Below, piece after piece: positions 22,014 to 39,951 of a stretch of DNA of 64,000 nucleotides. The notes beneath the pieces were generated by a model. It made no database searches, had not been told where the DNA came from, and was given only the letters and a program-made list of their open reading frames with translations. Each line of letters begins with the position of its first letter. Within the stretch, counting starts at the first letter, position 1. This stretch comes from Thermoproteota archaeon (GTDB taxonomy: Archaea > Korarchaeota > JAOZGF01 > JAOZFZ01): positions 43,458 to 107,457 of the forward strand of contig JAOZFT010000001.1 in NCBI GenBank assembly GCA_027492035.1, in the 5' to 3' direction. Position numbers and translations under genes: made by a program.

Positions 22014-22738
22014 ACTTTAACTCCTTTGACAAGAAAGAAGAGAAAAAGCCTCGACTTCACAATCTCCGGCTTAAAATAGACTGTAAAAAATTTGAGAAAA
22101 GTTTTAAAGTTCCACATTTCTTGAAAAGTAGCATAAAATAAACTCCATGGAGAAACATCTCTAAAATTCATCGAAATAAATTTGCTTATCGCCGGTACTA
22201 AATATCGAATGTATAAGGAGGAAAGTGGGGTTATGCATTCATTAAGAGGCTTAAAAACATCCAAAATAACTACGGTTCCGTTTTCTTTCAGAACTCTATG
22301 TATTGCTTGCAGTACACGTAGCTTATTCAATGAATCCCTGAAACTGTAAGAAGCGAAGACAACATCGAAAGAACTGTTTGGGAAAGGAAGTTCCTCAAAG
22401 AAACCCTTAATAAACTTTTTATTCACACCTTTATAGGGTAAAAGCTTATTCTTAGCTTCTTTAAGCATTCTATCTGAAGCGTCTAAACAGAAAAGTTCCC
22501 CTCTCCCCAGTTTCTTTGCAATAATTACTGATGAAACGCCTGGGCCGCAACCTAAGTCTAAAACTTTGAAACCAGGTTGAATACCGGCTAGTTCAACTGC
22601 TTGTTTACGCATTCGAGGGCCTAAACCAAAAGAAATAACTTTGTTAACTTTTTCATAGTGAGGAATCGCTTTTTCAAGACAACCAATTACTTCTTCAATG
22701 CTGAAACCGTGTTTTTCATGTTTTCTCTGCAACTGCAA
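22010..22738 (-). CDS. Class I SAM-dependent methyltransferase (UbiE-like)
   Basis: 242 residues with SAM motif I VLDLGCGPGVSSVI, an acidic residue ending strand two (LFCLDASDRML), and SSFDVVFASYSFRD and LKENGTVVILDVFKP further on, the order seen in UbiE/COQ5-type methyltransferases. In archaea such enzymes often methylate quinones or lipids, but the substrate here is open. TTG start preceded by GGGGGGAACG. It overlaps the small membrane protein gene upstream by 23 bases, so the two are likely translated together. Confidence 0.78.
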   Translation of the reverse strand: MQLQRKHEKHGFSIEEVIGCLEKAIPHYEKVNKVISFGLGPRMRKQAVELAGIQPGFKVLDLGCGPGVSSVIIAKKLGRGELFCLDASDRMLKEAKNKLLPYKGVNKKFIKGFFEELPFPNSSFDVVFASYSFRDSLNKLRVLQAIHRVLKENGTVVILDVFKPLNECITPLSSLYIRYLVPAISKFISMNFRDVSPWSLFYATFQEMWNFKTFLKFFTVYFKPEIVKSRLFLFFLVKGVKV

Positions 22739-23078
22739 ACGTTCCCCCCTTAGTTAAGCCTTCAACTAAAAAGTAAACACCTAAAGCTGAAATAATGAAA
22801 CTGAGAATAATTGTGATTTTCCAGAGGTAAATAAAAAGAGTGAGAATCAAGGAAAAGGCTCCACCTGATAAAAGAATTAGGATCTTACCTCTCAAAAAGT
22901 TTTTCTCTTTACTGCCAAAGTTAAGAAATGAAACAGTTAAAGCTGAAAGTAGACCTGTTAAAACATAAACCGGTTTATCTTCGTTACTTATCCAAAGAAA
23001 AAGGGAGGAAACCCAGAAAACAAGGAAAAATCCTCCAAGCCAAGTTTCAAACCATTCCTCTTCACTTAACCCGCCCAT
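22716..23078 (-). CDS. Small integral membrane protein, unknown
   Basis: 120 residues, four hydrophobic segments. The N-terminus (MGGLSEEEWFETWLGG) is acidic and amphipathic and may lie on the membrane surface. No family recognised. It sits between larB and the methyltransferase, overlapping the latter, so it may be in the larC-larB transcript. Confidence 0.55.
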   Translation of the reverse strand: MGGLSEEEWFETWLGGFFLVFWVSSLFLWISNEDKPVYVLTGLLSALTVSFLNFGSKEKNFLRGKILILLSGGAFSLILTLFIYLWKITIILSFIISALGVYFLVEGLTKGGTFAVAEKT

Positions 23079-23110: not shown

Positions 23111-23869
23111 TTATTTTCTGGCGATTAAAGCAGCTATAACTCCTGCATTCACTCCATTATCGATGTTAACCACAGCTACGCCTAAAGAACATGACTGAAG
23201 CATTGTAGATAAAGCTGCTTCACCTTTCCCTCTGAAACCGTAACCAACACTTGTAGGTAAACCTATCACAGGTACATCAACCAAACTAGCTACAACAGAC
23301 GGCAGAGCCCCTTCCATTCCCGCTGCAGCAACTATTACATGAACTCCCTCCTTCACCATTTCCTTCAATGCTGAGAGCAACCTGAAAAAACTAGAGAGCC
23401 CTACATCATACTTTTTAATTGTTTCACATCCCATTTCTTCTGCAACCACTCTTGCTTCTTCAGCGGCTTTTATGTCAGCTGTTCCAGCAGCTAAAACACC
23501 AACTTTCCCCCTCTTTTCAACTTTAAAGTCTCCATGTTTAATAACTAGGATTTCTGCTTCTTCAAAAAAGGAGGAGAGATAAGGTTTATGTATCTCTTTC
23601 ATTATTTCTTCAGCTTTATCTCTGCCTAAACCCGAGACAATCAAGTGTTTTTTCACTTTAATTGTTTCAAGAATTATTTTTTTTAAATGACGCCACTTTT
23701 TAGGTTTAGCAAAAATCACTTCCGGTTTGTTCACCCTTTTCTCTCTTGAAACGTCAATTACAGCTAATTCCTCTATTTCCTTGACAGCGTTTAGTTTTAG
23801 TAATTTCTCGGCTTCATGAACTCCTATTTCTCCATTCTTAAATTTCTTCAAAATTTCTCGCAGATACAT
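23111..23869 (-). CDS. larB: Nickel-pincer cofactor biosynthesis protein LarB
   Basis: LarB carboxylates and hydrolyses nicotinic acid adenine dinucleotide, the first step towards the nickel-pincer nucleotide cofactor. The N-terminal helical part (REILKKFKNGEIGVHEAEKL) and the C-terminal PurE-like domain are visible: VGVLAAGTADIKAAEEA, VIVAAAGMEGALPSVVASL and VIGLPTSVGYGFRGKGEAALSTML. At 252 residues it has family length. It follows larC by 19 bases. LarE and a LarA-type racemase are not in the window. Confidence 0.9.
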   Translation of the reverse strand: MYLREILKKFKNGEIGVHEAEKLLKLNAVKEIEELAVIDVSREKRVNKPEVIFAKPKKWRHLKKIILETIKVKKHLIVSGLGRDKAEEIMKEIHKPYLSSFFEEAEILVIKHGDFKVEKRGKVGVLAAGTADIKAAEEARVVAEEMGCETIKKYDVGLSSFFRLLSALKEMVKEGVHVIVAAAGMEGALPSVVASLVDVPVIGLPTSVGYGFRGKGEAALSTMLQSCSLGVAVVNIDNGVNAGVIAALIARK

Positions 23870-23888
23870 CCCCCTAAGTTCCCCTGAT

Positions 23889-25166
23889 TCATTTCTTACC
23901 TTTAAAGAGACTTAATTCTCCATTAAACTCCTCCACTAATTTTTTGTAAACTAAAATTTTTATGTTGAGGATTGAAGTGTTCATTTTTTCAGCTAACCTT
24001 TTCAGATCTTCGAATTCAGGTTTAACTCTAACTACTTCCCCCCTTTCATTCCTTGCAACTTTCACCCTTACTTCAGCTTCAACCCCTTTAAAATTTATTT
24101 TTAATTTTAAAGTGTCCCTCCTTAATACAAACCTTTCACAGGATGAAACTCTTACACCTAGGGTACCTGTTTCCCGCATTATCAGTTCAGAGAAATAAGC
24201 AGCTTTATCCTCTTCAACAACAGCCTTTAAAACGTAGCCAGGCCTGTTTTTCTTGGTTAACATCGGAAGTAAACAAAGATCAAGCAACCCCTCCCTCGAA
24301 ACCTTCCTAAACAAGTTACCAAGCACTTCACCAGAAACATCATCTATGTTAGTTTCCAATAGCACCTTTCTGTCAACAAATAAAGACCTTATTTCCTCCC
24401 CAAAAATAATCCTTAAAACATTCGGCACCTCCTCAAAGTCCATTTGTCCAGCTCCATACCCCACCTTAAAGGGTTTAATTAATGGATAAGAAGGTGAAAC
24501 CTTTTCAACTAAATTGACAAGGATAGATGCACCTGTCGGGGTGGCTAATTCACGTTGAACAAATCCACCATGAAAAGGGTAATTCCTACTTGTCAATATT
24601 TCAACTGTTGCAGGGGCTGGGACAGGGTAGATCCCATGATGAACCTTTACTGAGCCTCTGCCGACAGCTACAGGTGTACCGAACACCTTACCTTCTAAAA
24701 TATTTAAGTCATCTAAAGCTGTGAAAGTTCCTACAATATCTAAAACCGTGTCAACGCCTCCCATTTCATGCAGCTCAACTTCACCCATTTTTTTGCCATG
24801 AACAATTGACTCAGCCTCAAGTAAGGTTTTTAAGGTTTCAACAGCTAAAACTTTCGCTTTACCAGATAAATTTGCTTCATCCAATGCTTCTTTAACCTTT
24901 CCAACCATTTCAATTCCTTTACTTCCCTCCCCTTCCTCTTCCAGGATTTTGATACTTAATTTCTTAGCCTTGATCCCCTTCTTATCTGTTTTTTCAACAT
25001 TAATCTTTACTTTTTGACACTCTTTAAACAAGGAAGCTGTGTTCTTCATAGCTTCAATAACCTTTCCTTCATCAGCTCCAAGGTCTAGTAAAGCTGAAAT
25101 AAACATATCTCCTGACACACCGGCTAAGCTGCAGTCTACAATTGTTAAATATTTTTTAGTCAGCAA
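23889..25166 (-). CDS. larC: Nickel-pincer cofactor biosynthesis protein LarC (nickel insertion)
   Basis: LarC uses CTP to insert nickel into the pincer cofactor precursor. The 425-residue protein has the family N-terminus VDCSLAGVSGDMFISALLDLGA, the ELHEMGGVDTVLDIVGTFTALD segment and GIYPVPAPATVEIL, then the C-terminal ETNIDDVSGEVLGN. It is one uninterrupted frame, unlike the bacterial LarC1/LarC2 split by programmed frameshift. TTG start. The CooT-like gene lies directly upstream and larB directly downstream. Confidence 0.9.
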   Translation of the reverse strand: MLTKKYLTIVDCSLAGVSGDMFISALLDLGADEGKVIEAMKNTASLFKECQKVKINVEKTDKKGIKAKKLSIKILEEEGEGSKGIEMVGKVKEALDEANLSGKAKVLAVETLKTLLEAESIVHGKKMGEVELHEMGGVDTVLDIVGTFTALDDLNILEGKVFGTPVAVGRGSVKVHHGIYPVPAPATVEILTSRNYPFHGGFVQRELATPTGASILVNLVEKVSPSYPLIKPFKVGYGAGQMDFEEVPNVLRIIFGEEIRSLFVDRKVLLETNIDDVSGEVLGNLFRKVSREGLLDLCLLPMLTKKNRPGYVLKAVVEEDKAAYFSELIMRETGTLGVRVSSCERFVLRRDTLKLKINFKGVEAEVRVKVARNERGEVVRVKPEFEDLKRLAEKMNTSILNIKILVYKKLVEEFNGELSLFKGKK

Positions 25167-25196
25167 TTTCCCGTTTATCCCCCTACATATTATATT

Positions 25197-25385
25197 TCAT
25201 AAAGGTTTTAGGTATATTTTATGGTTTAAGAAGTTTATATGACTTATTTCAGCCTTCAAAACCTTTTTGTTGTTTAAAATATCTTGAATATATACTTTCC
25301 CATTTTCTACTTTCAAAAAAACACAGTCATCCATTAATTTTTTTTCTACACCGTTCTCTTCTAAGAAAACCTTCGATTGACACAT
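25197..25385 (-). CDS. CooT-like small nickel-binding protein
   Basis: A 62-residue protein beginning MCQSKVFLEENGVEKKLMDD and ending in SHINFLNHKIYLKPL. This is the CooT pattern: Met-Cys at the N-terminus (the Cys binds nickel in the known protein), then a small beta barrel with a DILNNKKVLKAEI-type segment. The frame is open to 25418, but the ATG at 25385 after GGGTGATTGAA gives the conserved MC start. Its position 30 bases before larC supports a nickel-delivery role for cofactor assembly; that partnership is inference. Confidence 0.75.
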   Translation of the reverse strand: MCQSKVFLEENGVEKKLMDDCVFLKVENGKVYIQDILNNKKVLKAEISHINFLNHKIYLKPL

Positions 25386-25574
25386 TTCAATCACCCGTAA
25401 AAGATAATGAAAAGACATTTCCCTTCTTTATCAACCCTTATTTTAATTTTATTTATTGAAGATTTAAAGGGTACCGGAACAATGCTGAAATTTTCCTTTT
25501 CAAAACTCCATAAAAGTGTTTGCAGCTACTAAGTAAGGAGTCTTCCTCCCAAAAAACACAAAAAGGTTCCCTAA

Positions 25575-26648
25575 TTAATGAAACAAAAACTTATTTGATA
25601 CGTATTTCCCAGTTATGGGGACCCTTTCCCCACATCTCGGGCATTTATTTCCTTTACTTAAATTATACCTCAAAATTTTGACGTTCCACCTTTTTATTAA
25701 CAATTCCCCACAGTTTGGGCAGTAGGTGCTTTCATATTTATGTCCAGGAACGTTTCCAAGGTAAGGAAATTTCACCCCCTCCCTTTTAGCTATTTTGTAA
25801 GCTTTCTCTAAAAACTTGATAGAAGTCGGTGGCTGCTTAAACTTGTAAGCTGGGAAATAACGGGTGAAGTGAAGAGGAGTTTCAGACCCTGCAAACCTTA
25901 AATGTTTCTCAACCAAACCAATTATCTTTTCTTCTTTATCGTTCAAGCCTGTCACAACTAAATGTACAACCTCTACATGTAACCCTTTCCTTTTAGCTTC
26001 CTTAATGTTTCTCCACACAAAATCAACATTCACCCCTCCACAGTATTTTCTATACACCTCCTCATCCCCCTTTACATCTATCTTTATTCCATTTAGGCCG
26101 GAGTCAGCTAACATGTTTAACGCTTCTAAACTCATGTAACCATTTGACACAAACGTGTTATAAAGTTTATTTTCTCTAGCTAGTTTAAATGTTTCAATAG
26201 AGGCCTCAAAAAACAAAGTTGGTTCCTGGAAACTGACACACAAACCTTGATCCCCCCTCAACAATGCTTCCTTCACTATTTCACGTGGAGGCAGGAAAAA
26301 GGCTTTCAGGGGATTAGGAAGTGTAGCTGATAACTGAAAGTTTTGGCACCAAGGACATTTGAAATTGCAGCTCCAAGTGGAAACAGTTAAAGCTTTTGAA
26401 CCAGGCCAAAAGTGAAAGAAAGGTTTTATTTCTATGGGTCTACTTTCAATTACACTTAAGTCTCCGTAAACTAAAGTGTAAAGTTTACCTTCAACGTTTA
26501 CTCTTGTTCCACAAAAACCTGTTTGTTTTTCTTCCAGAACACATTTCCTTTCGCAAAGTAAACATTGAACCTTACTGCTTCTAAGCCTTCTATAAAGCAA
26601 AGCCTCCCTTACTGTAGAGGATTTTCGGAACTGTTCAGGAGTGAACAA
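25575..26648 (-). CDS. AmrS-type radical SAM protein (AmmeMemoRadiSam family)
   Basis: 357 residues. The radical SAM cluster motif is CNFKCPWCQN (CxxxCxxC). Before it lie two Cys pairs typical of the family (CLLCERKC and GFCGTR), and the C-terminus ends in a zinc ribbon (CPNCGELL and CPRCGERV). AmrS proteins usually co-occur with AMMECR1 and Memo proteins, neither of which is in this window; their reaction is not established. TTG start with GGGGGTTA upstream. It is the first of three related genes here (others at 26784 and 53055). Confidence 0.82.
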   Translation of the reverse strand: MFTPEQFRKSSTVREALLYRRLRSSKVQCLLCERKCVLEEKQTGFCGTRVNVEGKLYTLVYGDLSVIESRPIEIKPFFHFWPGSKALTVSTWSCNFKCPWCQNFQLSATLPNPLKAFFLPPREIVKEALLRGDQGLCVSFQEPTLFFEASIETFKLARENKLYNTFVSNGYMSLEALNMLADSGLNGIKIDVKGDEEVYRKYCGGVNVDFVWRNIKEAKRKGLHVEVVHLVVTGLNDKEEKIIGLVEKHLRFAGSETPLHFTRYFPAYKFKQPPTSIKFLEKAYKIAKREGVKFPYLGNVPGHKYESTYCPNCGELLIKRWNVKILRYNLSKGNKCPRCGERVPITGKYVSNKFLFH

Positions 26649-26783
26649 ACACAGTAACCCCCTTTAAAACCTGAAAGGATTTGTAGTGAAGAAATTGAAG
26701 CCTCCTAAAAAGGTTGAAAGTATCTCTCACTTATATTTTTCTAAACGAACCCTTTCTAAAAATTTTAAAAGAGGAAACATAGT

Positions 26784-27938
26784 TTAAAAAGTTGTTCCCT
26801 GTTTTTTAGCAGCTTTCTCAAATTCTGACATGTCCCTTAACCCTAAAAGATGCAAATTACCCACATTAACCCTGCTTAAATGTTTTTTAGCGGCTAAATA
26901 ACATTCCACAGCTTGTTCCAAGGGGGTAACGGGTAAATCTCTCATTAAGTACTCTGGATAGAAAATCAGTAAGCTGTAAGGGATGTCTTCATCTATATCC
27001 GCAATAAATTGAGCTATTTTTTCAACCTCTAATTCATCTACATAACCTGGGACAAGCAAGGTAGTTGCGTTTAAAACAGGGTTTCCCTTTCTTTCAAAAT
27101 AAAACTTTTCACCTACCAATTTAAAGTTGGAGTAAGCTTTACTGTTAGAGACGCCACTTAAAGCTAAGCTTAAGTTTGAATCAAAAACCTTCAAATCAAA
27201 TTTAATATTCCCACCACTAACTAACGAAAGTTCAGCAGCTTCTTCAACCAACTTACTATTTCCGCAGCCGTTCCATTCAAAACATACTCTTAAAACTCTG
27301 TCCCTGATTTGTTTCAAAACTTTCCTTGAAACATTTAAGGCGAAAGGAAGCTGAGGCTCAGGTGATCCACCAAAGAAACAAATACAAGTGACTTTACGGT
27401 TTCTGTTCACCACCTCCAGAAATTTTTCAGCTGTAACAAGTCCCCCCCGGCTTAAAATTTTATGTGTCCAGTTTTGACAGAATAAACAATCGAAATTGCA
27501 GCCGTAAAAGAAAACAGCTAAGTTGTAGTACCCGTATTCAGGTCCCTCCTTTACTGCATACTTCGGGAACCCTAAACCCGTAGCTGCTGGACAGTAATAA
27601 GCTGCGCAGCAGTTTGTTACGTGTGGATCTAGATACCAATCCAGTAATCCCTTCTCAGAACTCACCATACTTTCTAACTTGTTTCTTTTATTCTTCCTTA
27701 AACCGCAGAACCCACTTTCTCCATTTGCAATGGAGCAGTAGTTTGAACAAATTGAACATTTAACTCCTTCCCCAAACTTAGGTGGTTTAACCGGTAAACC
27801 ATACTTTACTCTTTCTTTATGAGCTTCCTCAACAAATTTAGAGGCTTCACTCCAGTTGTTTCTGATACAATCTATACAAACTTTCAGTGTTTCCGAAATA
27901 AGGGGGGATTCTCTTCCGCAAATAACGCATCTTTTCAA
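26784..27938 (-). CDS. Radical SAM protein with N-terminal zinc-binding module (AmrS/PflA-related)
   Basis: 384 residues. It starts with CVICGRES and CIDCIRN, a treble-clef-like pair absent from the neighbours, then CSICSNYC and GFCGLRK as in AmrS proteins, then a Cys-rich stretch CCAAYYCPAA, and the radical SAM motif CNFDCLFCQNW. It lacks the C-terminal zinc ribbon of the other two copies. The reaction is unknown. TTG start at 27938 following GGAAGGTGTC. The gap to the AmrS gene downstream is 135 bases. Confidence 0.75.
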   Translation of the reverse strand: MKRCVICGRESPLISETLKVCIDCIRNNWSEASKFVEEAHKERVKYGLPVKPPKFGEGVKCSICSNYCSIANGESGFCGLRKNKRNKLESMVSSEKGLLDWYLDPHVTNCCAAYYCPAATGLGFPKYAVKEGPEYGYYNLAVFFYGCNFDCLFCQNWTHKILSRGGLVTAEKFLEVVNRNRKVTCICFFGGSPEPQLPFALNVSRKVLKQIRDRVLRVCFEWNGCGNSKLVEEAAELSLVSGGNIKFDLKVFDSNLSLALSGVSNSKAYSNFKLVGEKFYFERKGNPVLNATTLLVPGYVDELEVEKIAQFIADIDEDIPYSLLIFYPEYLMRDLPVTPLEQAVECYLAAKKHLSRVNVGNLHLLGLRDMSEFEKAAKKQGTTF

Positions 27939-37004: not shown

Positions 37005-37057
37005 AAGTGTCACTTTTTCTTTTTTTGTGTTACTAGCTTAGGAGAAAGGTGGCAAAA

Positions 37058-37726
37058 ATGCATATTCCAGATGGATACCTTGGACCCTTAACATGCGCAG
37101 TTATGTTTTTAGTGATGGTACCGATTTGGTACTTTGCTTTAAAAAACACGTCAAAGAGACTAGGTCCAAAAGAAGTTCCAATGATAGCTGTTCTTTCAGC
37201 AGTATCTTTTCTAGTAATGATGTTTAACTGGCCTGTACCTGATGGCACCACTGCCCACATGGTGGGTGGAACCCTTTTTGCAATCATCCTCGGTCCTTGG
37301 GCGTCAGTTATTGGAATCACTGTCGCATTAGTTATTCAAGCATTCTTTTTCGGTGACGGAGGAGTAACAGCTTTAGGAGCTAACTGTTTCAACATGGCAT
37401 TTGTGATCCCTTTTGTGGGTTACTTCATTTATAAAGCATTAAAAGAAAGGATCGGCAAGGTTGCATCTGCAGGAGTTGCTGCTTACATAGCAATAAACAT
37501 TGCAGCTGTGGTTGCAGCTATTGAATTCGGTGTTCAACCATACATTGCACCTGGGTACTGTCCTTACGGTTTAAATTTATCCATACCTGCAATGGCTTTC
37601 GCTCACTTGACAACTGCTGGACCTGTAGCTGCTGTTGTCACTGCGGTAGTGGTTGGTTACTTAGAAAGAAGCAGACCTGACTTACTTGCACTAAAGGAGA
37701 CTTCTCCAAATATTAGAGGTGAATGA
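37058..37726 (+). CDS. Nickel/cobalt ECF importer, substrate-binding membrane subunit (NikM/CbiM)
   Basis: 223 residues, about seven membrane helices. The mature N-terminus MHIPDGYLGP is the family hallmark: His2 and the terminal amine hold the metal, which fixes the start at the ATG of 37058 and not the GTG at 37049. FNWPVPDGTTAHMVGG supplies the second His. Nickel and cobalt versions look alike; the PDGLE-type partner and the lar/CooT genes elsewhere in the window favour nickel, which is inference. First gene of a four-gene operon. Confidence 0.85.
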   Translation: MHIPDGYLGPLTCAVMFLVMVPIWYFALKNTSKRLGPKEVPMIAVLSAVSFLVMMFNWPVPDGTTAHMVGGTLFAIILGPWASVIGITVALVIQAFFFGDGGVTALGANCFNMAFVIPFVGYFIYKALKERIGKVASAGVAAYIAINIAAVVAAIEFGVQPYIAPGYCPYGLNLSIPAMAFAHLTTAGPVAAVVTAVVVGYLERSRPDLLALKETSPNIRGE

Positions 37727-37729
37727 GGA

Positions 37730-38050
37730 ATGGAGCCTTGGTTAAAAAGGACTTTAGTTGCACTTGCTGTGTTCATTGTTTTATCTCCGTTAGGTATACT
37801 TTTTACCTGGGACTACGGGGACGCATGGGGAGAGTGGGGTGAAGTTAAGTTACCAAATGGGAAAGTGTGGACGCCGAAATCCTATTTTAACGCACCTCTC
37901 CCAGACTATAACGTTGAAGGATGGGAAGATAAACTGATGGCTTCCATTGGGTACTGGATCTCGGCAGTAATTGGAGTTGCAGCCACTATGCTTATGTCTC
38001 TTGGAGTTGTGAAAACGATTGAACTCTGGAGAAGTGAAGAAGGCAAATAA
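37730..38050 (+). CDS. Nickel/cobalt ECF importer, PDGLE/CbiN-like subunit
   Basis: 106 residues with two membrane helices (residues 8-26 and 72-95) flanking an extracellular loop that contains APLPDYNVEG. This is the PDGLE-type arrangement that replaces CbiN in many nickel systems. The small subunit is needed for metal loading into the M component. It starts three bases after the M gene stop. Confidence 0.75.
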   Translation: MEPWLKRTLVALAVFIVLSPLGILFTWDYGDAWGEWGEVKLPNGKVWTPKSYFNAPLPDYNVEGWEDKLMASIGYWISAVIGVAATMLMSLGVVKTIELWRSEEGK

Positions 38051-38110
38051 CTGATAAAATACTTTTCTCCTTTTTTTGTTAAAAGAGAACGTAGGGGTTG
38101 GTTAAAGAAA

Positions 38111-38998
38111 ATGAGTTTCACGGAAAGAACACTTTACGAAATCATAAATTGGGTGAGGGATTCTGTTTTTTCTGAAATCTACGCGGATAAGAAAGGGTTC
38201 CTACAATCCTTGAACCCAAGAATAAAATTTATTGCATTTCTATGTCTATTGGTCAGTGTAGTGTGTGTCCGTAGCCTACAAGTCATTTTATTCTTTCTCC
38301 TATTTTCCCTTTTACTAGTTTATTTCTCAAAAATACCTTTCAAGTTTTACTTGACCAGAGTGTTAATTTTTATTCCCATATTTACGGGGATAGTGGCTTT
38401 TCCCTCCATTTTCAATATTTTCCAACAAAATAAGGGTAGACCCCTTATTGTACTTTACAATTTCGGTTACACCGTCAATTTTCCCTTCTTAAAACCTTTT
38501 TCAACAATTGAAATAACTGAGGAGGGTGTTTATTGGGCTTTAACTTTTGTTTTACGCGTCACAGTTTCTGTTTCTTTAACAGTATTACTTATACTTACAA
38601 CTAAATGGCCTAGCCTTCTTTCCTCCTTAAGTTCAATAAGGACTCCGGAAACCTTCATCTTTATTTTACACATGACCTACCGCTACATTTTCCTTTTAGC
38701 TACACTAGTTTCTAACATGCTTTTTTCAAGGAAAAGCAGAATAGTTGGGAAAGAAACTGCAATTAAAAGTTGGAAATTGAATGCAAACATAATTGGCGCC
38801 CTTTTTTTAAAATCTCATGATATGAGTGAAAATATTTACTTAGCGATGCTTTCAAGAGGTTTCAATGGACAAGTAAGTAGATCAATGATTAACGTGAAAG
38901 AAAGACAAATGAAGGAAGGGAACATAAAGAGCTATTTATTCCTTATTGCCACAGTAATTTTTTGTGCAACTATTTTGTTGAAGGAGGCATTGATGTGA
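38111..38998 (+). CDS. Nickel/cobalt ECF importer, transmembrane T subunit (NikQ/CbiQ)
   Basis: 295 residues with five or six helices and the coupling motifs that touch the ATPases. LNPRIKFIAFLCLLV near the N-terminus matches the start of the T-component domain, and AMLSRGFNGQ near the C-terminus is the Ala-Arg-Gly coupling motif. Its stop codon overlaps the start of the ATPase gene (ATGTGA). Confidence 0.85.
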   Translation: MSFTERTLYEIINWVRDSVFSEIYADKKGFLQSLNPRIKFIAFLCLLVSVVCVRSLQVILFFLLFSLLLVYFSKIPFKFYLTRVLIFIPIFTGIVAFPSIFNIFQQNKGRPLIVLYNFGYTVNFPFLKPFSTIEITEEGVYWALTFVLRVTVSVSLTVLLILTTKWPSLLSSLSSIRTPETFIFILHMTYRYIFLLATLVSNMLFSRKSRIVGKETAIKSWKLNANIIGALFLKSHDMSENIYLAMLSRGFNGQVSRSMINVKERQMKEGNIKSYLFLIATVIFCATILLKEALM

Positions 38999-39951
38999 AA
39001 AAGGCAAGTAATTTATGGAAGGAAAAAACTGCTTTACTTGAATTAAAGGGGGTTTGTTACAGTTACCCTGATGGAACAGAGGCACTGAATAACATAGACT
39101 TAACTATTTATAGAGGAGAGAAAGTGGCTGTTATAGGTCCTAATGGAGCCGGGAAAACAACCCTGCTTAAAATTTTAGATGGGCTAGTGCTCCCAACTAA
39201 AGGTGTGGCGAAAATTTTTGGCATGCCACTTAACAAAAAAATTTTAAACAGCAAAAAAATGTACAATGTCAGGAAAAGACTGGGTTTTGTTTTCCAAGAC
39301 CCAGATGTTGAACTTTTCTCAGCCACTGTATGGGATGACATAGCTTTTGGACCTTTACACCTAAACCTTTCACATAAGGAAATAGATAAGAGAGTGGAAG
39401 AGACTTTAAAACTTTTAAATATAGAAAATTTGAAGGATAAACATCCTTACAACCTCAGCGGTGGAGAGAAGAGAAAAGCAGCTATTGCAGCTGTTCTCAG
39501 TGTAGATCCGGAGGTATTGCTTCTAGATGAACCTACAGCAGATCTAGACCCAAGAAGCAAGGCTGAAGTTATTGATATAATAAATGAATTAAACAAGACA
39601 GGTAAAACAATTGTTACAGCAACTCAGGACATGGACATTGTCCCTGAACTTGCAGACAGGGTATATGTTTTAAATAAGGAGTTGATGGCTGAAGGAACAC
39701 CTAAAGAAATATTTTCAGATATTGAAATGTTAAAAAGAAACAATTTGGAAGTTCCTGAAGTGATGAAGCTCTTCGAAGTTTTGAAATGTTTCGGGTACGA
39801 CTACACAAGGTTACCTCTCTCAATTAATGAAGCAATAAAGGTGCTTACTGAAACAATTGAAACTGAGGGGGGACATATTCATTTACACATCCACGAACAT
39901 ACACATGAAGAAATAAAGAAACTGAAGGGAAAATATAACCATCACAGTTAA
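38995..39951 (+). CDS. Nickel/cobalt ECF importer, ATPase (NikO/CbiO) with His-rich tail
   Basis: About 318 residues. Walker A GPNGAGKTTLL, Q-loop VFQDPDVELFSATVWDDIAFG, ABC signature LSGGEKRKAAIA and Walker B VLLLDEPTADLDP are intact. Unusually, the C-terminus carries GGHIHLHIHEHTHEE, six His in about twelve residues, likely binding Ni or Co and perhaps sensing cytoplasmic metal. GTG start overlapping the T gene stop, preceded by GGAGGCATTGAT. The longer frame from 38962 lies inside the T gene and is not used. Confidence 0.88.
   Translation: MKKASNLWKEKTALLELKGVCYSYPDGTEALNNIDLTIYRGEKVAVIGPNGAGKTTLLKILDGLVLPTKGVAKIFGMPLNKKILNSKKMYNVRKRLGFVFQDPDVELFSATVWDDIAFGPLHLNLSHKEIDKRVEETLKLLNIENLKDKHPYNLSGGEKRKAAIAAVLSVDPEVLLLDEPTADLDPRSKAEVIDIINELNKTGKTIVTATQDMDIVPELADRVYVLNKELMAEGTPKEIFSDIEMLKRNNLEVPEVMKLFEVLKCFGYDYTRLPLSINEAIKVLTETIETEGGHIHLHIHEHTHEEIKKLKGKYNHHS

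Follow-up and report, generated by a model that had tools for sequence, protein, structure and literature searches.

The window, a 64,000-nucleotide stretch of DNA from a Thermoproteota archaeon, carries on its minus strand a compact run of three genes with a nickel theme. The first, cooT (25385..25197), encodes a 62-residue CooT-family nickel-binding protein and begins with an ATG followed immediately by TGT. Behind it lie larC (25166..23889), which uses a TTG start and encodes a 425-residue nickel-pincer nucleotide cyclometallase with LarC1 and LarC2 in one frame, and larB (23869..23111), encoding the 252-residue NaAD carboxylase/hydrolase of nickel-pincer cofactor synthesis. No overlaps occur within the run, and the narrow same-strand gaps (30 nt between cooT and larC, 19 nt between larC and larB) suggest that the three genes are probably read as one transcript. 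Upstream of cooT, an A+T-rich intergenic stretch of 189 nt (25386..25574, minus strand) is the putative promoter region of the run, and a GGGTGAT motif close upstream of the cooT ATG is a plausible ribosome-binding site that supports this choice of start. A scan with a sigma-70 promoter and terminator model, which is inapplicable to archaea, returned nothing above chance.

The genes on either side of the run were also examined. About 30 nt downstream of larB, a hydrophobic protein of 120 residues (22716-23078, minus strand) had no family matches; its gene overlaps that of a UbiE-type methyltransferase and may share the larB transcript. Upstream of cooT, positions 25575-27938 on the minus strand hold two radical SAM genes of the AmmeMemoRadiSam/PflA-activase type, the second of which is 61% identical to a gene lying about 4 kb from CooT in a sister genus (G001). 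Some 12 kb from the cooT-larC-larB run, positions 37055-39951 on the plus strand encode a CbiM protein (starting MHIPDGYL), a small CbiN/NikN-like protein, CbiQ and an ECF ATPase, a set that corresponds to a cobalt/nickel ECF importer.

The small protein encoded by the first gene of the run is a genuine CooT. It matches the Pfam CooT family (PF10133) over the full profile length with 65.2 bits against a cut-off of 27, and its N terminus (MCQSKV...) has the Met1-Cys2 start that is invariant across a 30-sequence CooT alignment. An AlphaFold2 model of the protein (pLDDT 95.9) was most similar in the PDB to known CooT structures, which made up all of the best seven matches, with TM scores of 0.90 for 6fan and ~0.79 for 5n76. 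The family membership proposed in the original prediction therefore stood up to the Pfam, fold and N-terminal tests. In fold, length, Met1-Cys2 start and family profile the protein resembles the CooTs of Rhodospirillum rubrum (5n76) and Carboxydothermus hydrogenoformans (6fan), although it shares only 20-22% identity with them and its gene precedes larC and larB rather than lying in a CO dehydrogenase (CODH) operon. The CooT of R. rubrum has been reported to form a homodimer with one nickel bound via both Cys2 residues (reviewed in PMC6006190), and by analogy the window protein would dimerize and hold a single nickel ion between its Cys2 side chains.

The identities of the two lar genes are equally clear. 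The larC product scored 379 bits against Pfam PF01969 (Ni_insertion), 167 and 115 bits against the NCBIfam LarC1 and LarC2 models, and above the cut-off against TIGR00299 and NF052512; it aligned with nine LarC proteins from the same phylum at 35-45% identity. The larB product matched NCBIfam NF033503 with 226 bits (cut-off 175) and also PF00731. The order of a cooT-like gene, larC and larB with a common nickel theme, as originally described, is thus borne out both in the gene identities and in the operon-like run. It had further been proposed that the genes for LarE and LarA lie outside this region, and both were indeed found elsewhere in the host genome, LarE on contig C20 (TIGR00268, 275 bits) and two LarA homologues on contigs C8 and C39, which rules out that the organism lacks either protein. 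The host genome accordingly holds a complete nickel-pincer pathway, with LarB, LarE, LarC and at least one LarA. LarB, LarC, LarE and LarA are likewise the components of the larB-larE-larC plus larA pathway of Lactiplantibacillus plantarum and Thermotoga maritima, but the host genes differ in being spread over four contigs, in having larC before larB, and in having cooT before larC. The host LarE has a CxxC plus third Cys pattern, the mark of the [4Fe-4S] type of LarE described for T. maritima (PMC9283937). As for the two LarA homologues, the one on C39 (L042:1-953) retains the sequence PHYFAGFTGG, and the one on C8 (L041:8745-10028) is nearest to the LarAH6 malate racemase model, below the cut-off of that model, and appears to be without the second catalytic histidine (NITPCMLAGYSGG). 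Single-histidine LarA-like enzymes have recently been described, and the C8 protein resembles these in that trait.

To assess whether the position of cooT beside larC is conserved, we searched 394 archaeal genomes for CooT and LarC. Both proteins were present in 78 of them, yet the two genes were adjacent in a single case, the window itself, and the next nearest pair was 15.7 kb apart. Adjacency would have been visible elsewhere, because at least 700 bp of contig flanks CooT on both sides in 72 of the 78 genomes. Within the host phylum (29 genomes), six genomes encode both proteins, and the genes lie together in that of the window alone. We also approached the question from the side of larC, using 80 larC loci of other genomes (about 20 of them bacterial) drawn from a collection that spans 84,980 species. 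No CooT was found in flanks of up to 8 kb around any of these loci, and a search of them at lowered threshold gave chance matches only, whereas the same method placed larB within 3 kb in 35 of the 80 and larE in 31. Of the CooT neighbourhoods surveyed, the CooT model missed the gene in just one, so lack of sensitivity does not account for the absence of CooT from the larC loci. A further search of archaea at class and phylum level added two genomes, neither with CooT, and a search of the open-access literature returned no published link between CooT and LarC. The wider neighbourhood conservation whose absence the original prediction had itself named as evidence against it is therefore missing. 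By a rough estimate, adjacency would arise by chance at ~0.1% per genome (~1,900 genes), or ~8% for an occurrence somewhere among the 78.

A faint second link between CooT and the Lar proteins was seen in two genomes of one family, in which CooT lies 2.8 kb (G057) and 5.2 kb (G137) from larB. In both (loci L193 and L196, respectively) CooT stands in an apparent run with GAPDH-, inositol-monophosphatase- (SuhB-) and NAD-kinase-like genes, named here by reading of the sequences rather than by family search. Eight other surveyed genomes of that family have no larB in the stretches examined, and we do not treat the proximity as a conserved module.

The distribution of CooT across archaea instead follows that of CODH. 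A prismane-family (CODH/HCP) gene was present in 98 of 100 genomes with CooT as against 52 of 294 without it (Fisher p ~6e-51), where the presence of CODH is somewhat overcounted given that the Pfam model used (PF03063) also catches hybrid cluster proteins. LarC was found in 78 of the 100 CooT genomes, largely because LarC and CODH themselves co-occur. When only CODH-positive genomes were considered, the association of CooT with LarC was weaker but persisted (odds ratio 2.7; p = 0.008 with no correction for kinship), and none was seen between CooT and LarA (odds ratio 0.84). Among the 29 genomes that have LarC and LarA but no CODH, just two encode CooT, one of these being 71% complete. CooT follows CODH far more tightly than it follows LarC or LarA. 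Together with the lack of neighbourhood conservation, this leaves the original proposal, that CooT-like proteins supply LarC with nickel, without support as a general rule.

The gene neighbourhoods point in the same direction. In 31 genomes, CooT has a CooC-like or CooS gene no more than 8 kb away, and in 13 an immediate neighbour of CooT is CooC-like. The CooC model behind these counts was built for this analysis and may pick up MinD-type ATPases of other kinds as well. In seven relatives from the host phylum (G008, G018, G006, G009, G022, G026 and G025) CooT is 1-8 kb from CooS. In the sister genus G001 it adjoins a CooC-type ATPase, and the larB-larC-larE cluster of that genome is on a different contig with no CooT beside it. 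Published surveys, too, locate CooT in CODH operons, namely those of clades E and F (PMC13056359; see also PMC6344411). One CODH operon in our set (L192; G256:C1:1808311-1808690) carries a tandem pair of CooT genes right after its CooC-type gene.

The host genome has a CODH of its own, with CooS encoded on contig C21 (67380-69053; TIGR01702, 750 bits) in an operon with a CooF-like protein and an ATPase, the latter called CooC-like by similarity, as it met no NCBIfam equivalog. We looked for CooT in this operon and found none; the genome contains a single CooT match among its contigs, the one at larC. The CooF, CooS and CooC-like genes correspond to the CooS-CooC-CooT operons of G205 and G256 (family f10) and of G026 and G008 (host phylum), but in those genomes cooT is part of the CODH operon (with cooC immediately before it in G026, G205 and G256), whereas in the host it lies on another contig beside larC. 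In a CooT tree, built from 63 columns and with long branches flagged, the window CooT grouped with those of G205 and G256 and fell in a supported set (96/83) that otherwise comprises only CooTs from CODH operons or linked to CooC. This grouping is supporting rather than decisive evidence.

Taken together, these data make it probable that the window encodes a nickel carrier of the CODH type whose gene now sits in a lar cluster, an arrangement specific to this lineage. The inherited client of the protein would most likely be the CooS-type CODH on the other contig; a rearrangement in this lineage would have put cooT ahead of larC and larB, after which the nickel carrier and the nickel-cofactor enzymes would probably be transcribed together, and their common dependence on nickel may help to keep cooT at this site. 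The co-occurrence of CooT with CODH, the rarity of CooT in genomes with LarC and LarA but no CODH, the CooS and CooC neighbourhoods and the tree all speak for CODH as the client. Close genes on the same strand are usually co-transcribed and often related in function, and the 30-nt gap between cooT and larC argues against this reading, as do the residual association of CooT with LarC that CODH does not fully explain (p = 0.008, without phylogenetic correction) and, faintly, the proximity of CooT to larB in G057 and G137.

A rival reading is that CooT was recruited in this lineage as a nickel donor for LarC, either alone or shared with CODH, such that nickel-loaded CooT would dock on LarC and supply the CTP-activated dithiocarboxylate substrate with Ni(II). 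This is possible but doubtful. The tight same-strand cluster, the complete Lar pathway of the host, the separation of its CooT from its CODH operon, and the 3-5 kb distance between CooT and larB in two genomes are all consistent with such a role. It is harder to reconcile with the failure of the arrangement to recur, either in the genomes that have both genes or at the 80 larC loci, and with the 27 of 29 CODH-negative genomes that keep LarC and LarA and do without CooT. Moreover, in vitro NPN synthesis is reported with purified LarB, LarE and LarC, in passages that name no nickel chaperone (PMC7583248), and the CTP-dependent insertion of nickel by LarC has been described without one (PMC11796402). 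That CooT has by now become the dedicated donor to LarC in this deep lineage seems to us quite improbable; if true, this would give nickel-pincer cofactor synthesis its first metallochaperone, as the papers considered here describe the step without any chaperone. Also unlikely, in our view, is a general role for CooT in buffering or carrying cytosolic nickel, in which case its place near the Lar genes and the CbiMNQO-type importer would reflect nickel-related regulation only. The host does have several probable nickel users for a general carrier to serve (CODH, a NiFe hydrogenase-family protein and LarA) as well as the ECF importer in the window, but CooT follows CODH specifically across genomes, the 12 kb between the importer and CooT are too long a distance to count as operonic linkage, and cobalt is the annotated substrate of CbiM-type importers.

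As support for a transfer of nickel from CooT to LarC, the cooT-larC-larB arrangement is therefore weak, and the survey speaks against annotating CooT as a partner of LarC on present evidence. The presence of CooT in an archaeal genome predicts CODH, and the arrangement in this lineage offers a concrete protein pair with which to test how LarC obtains its nickel.
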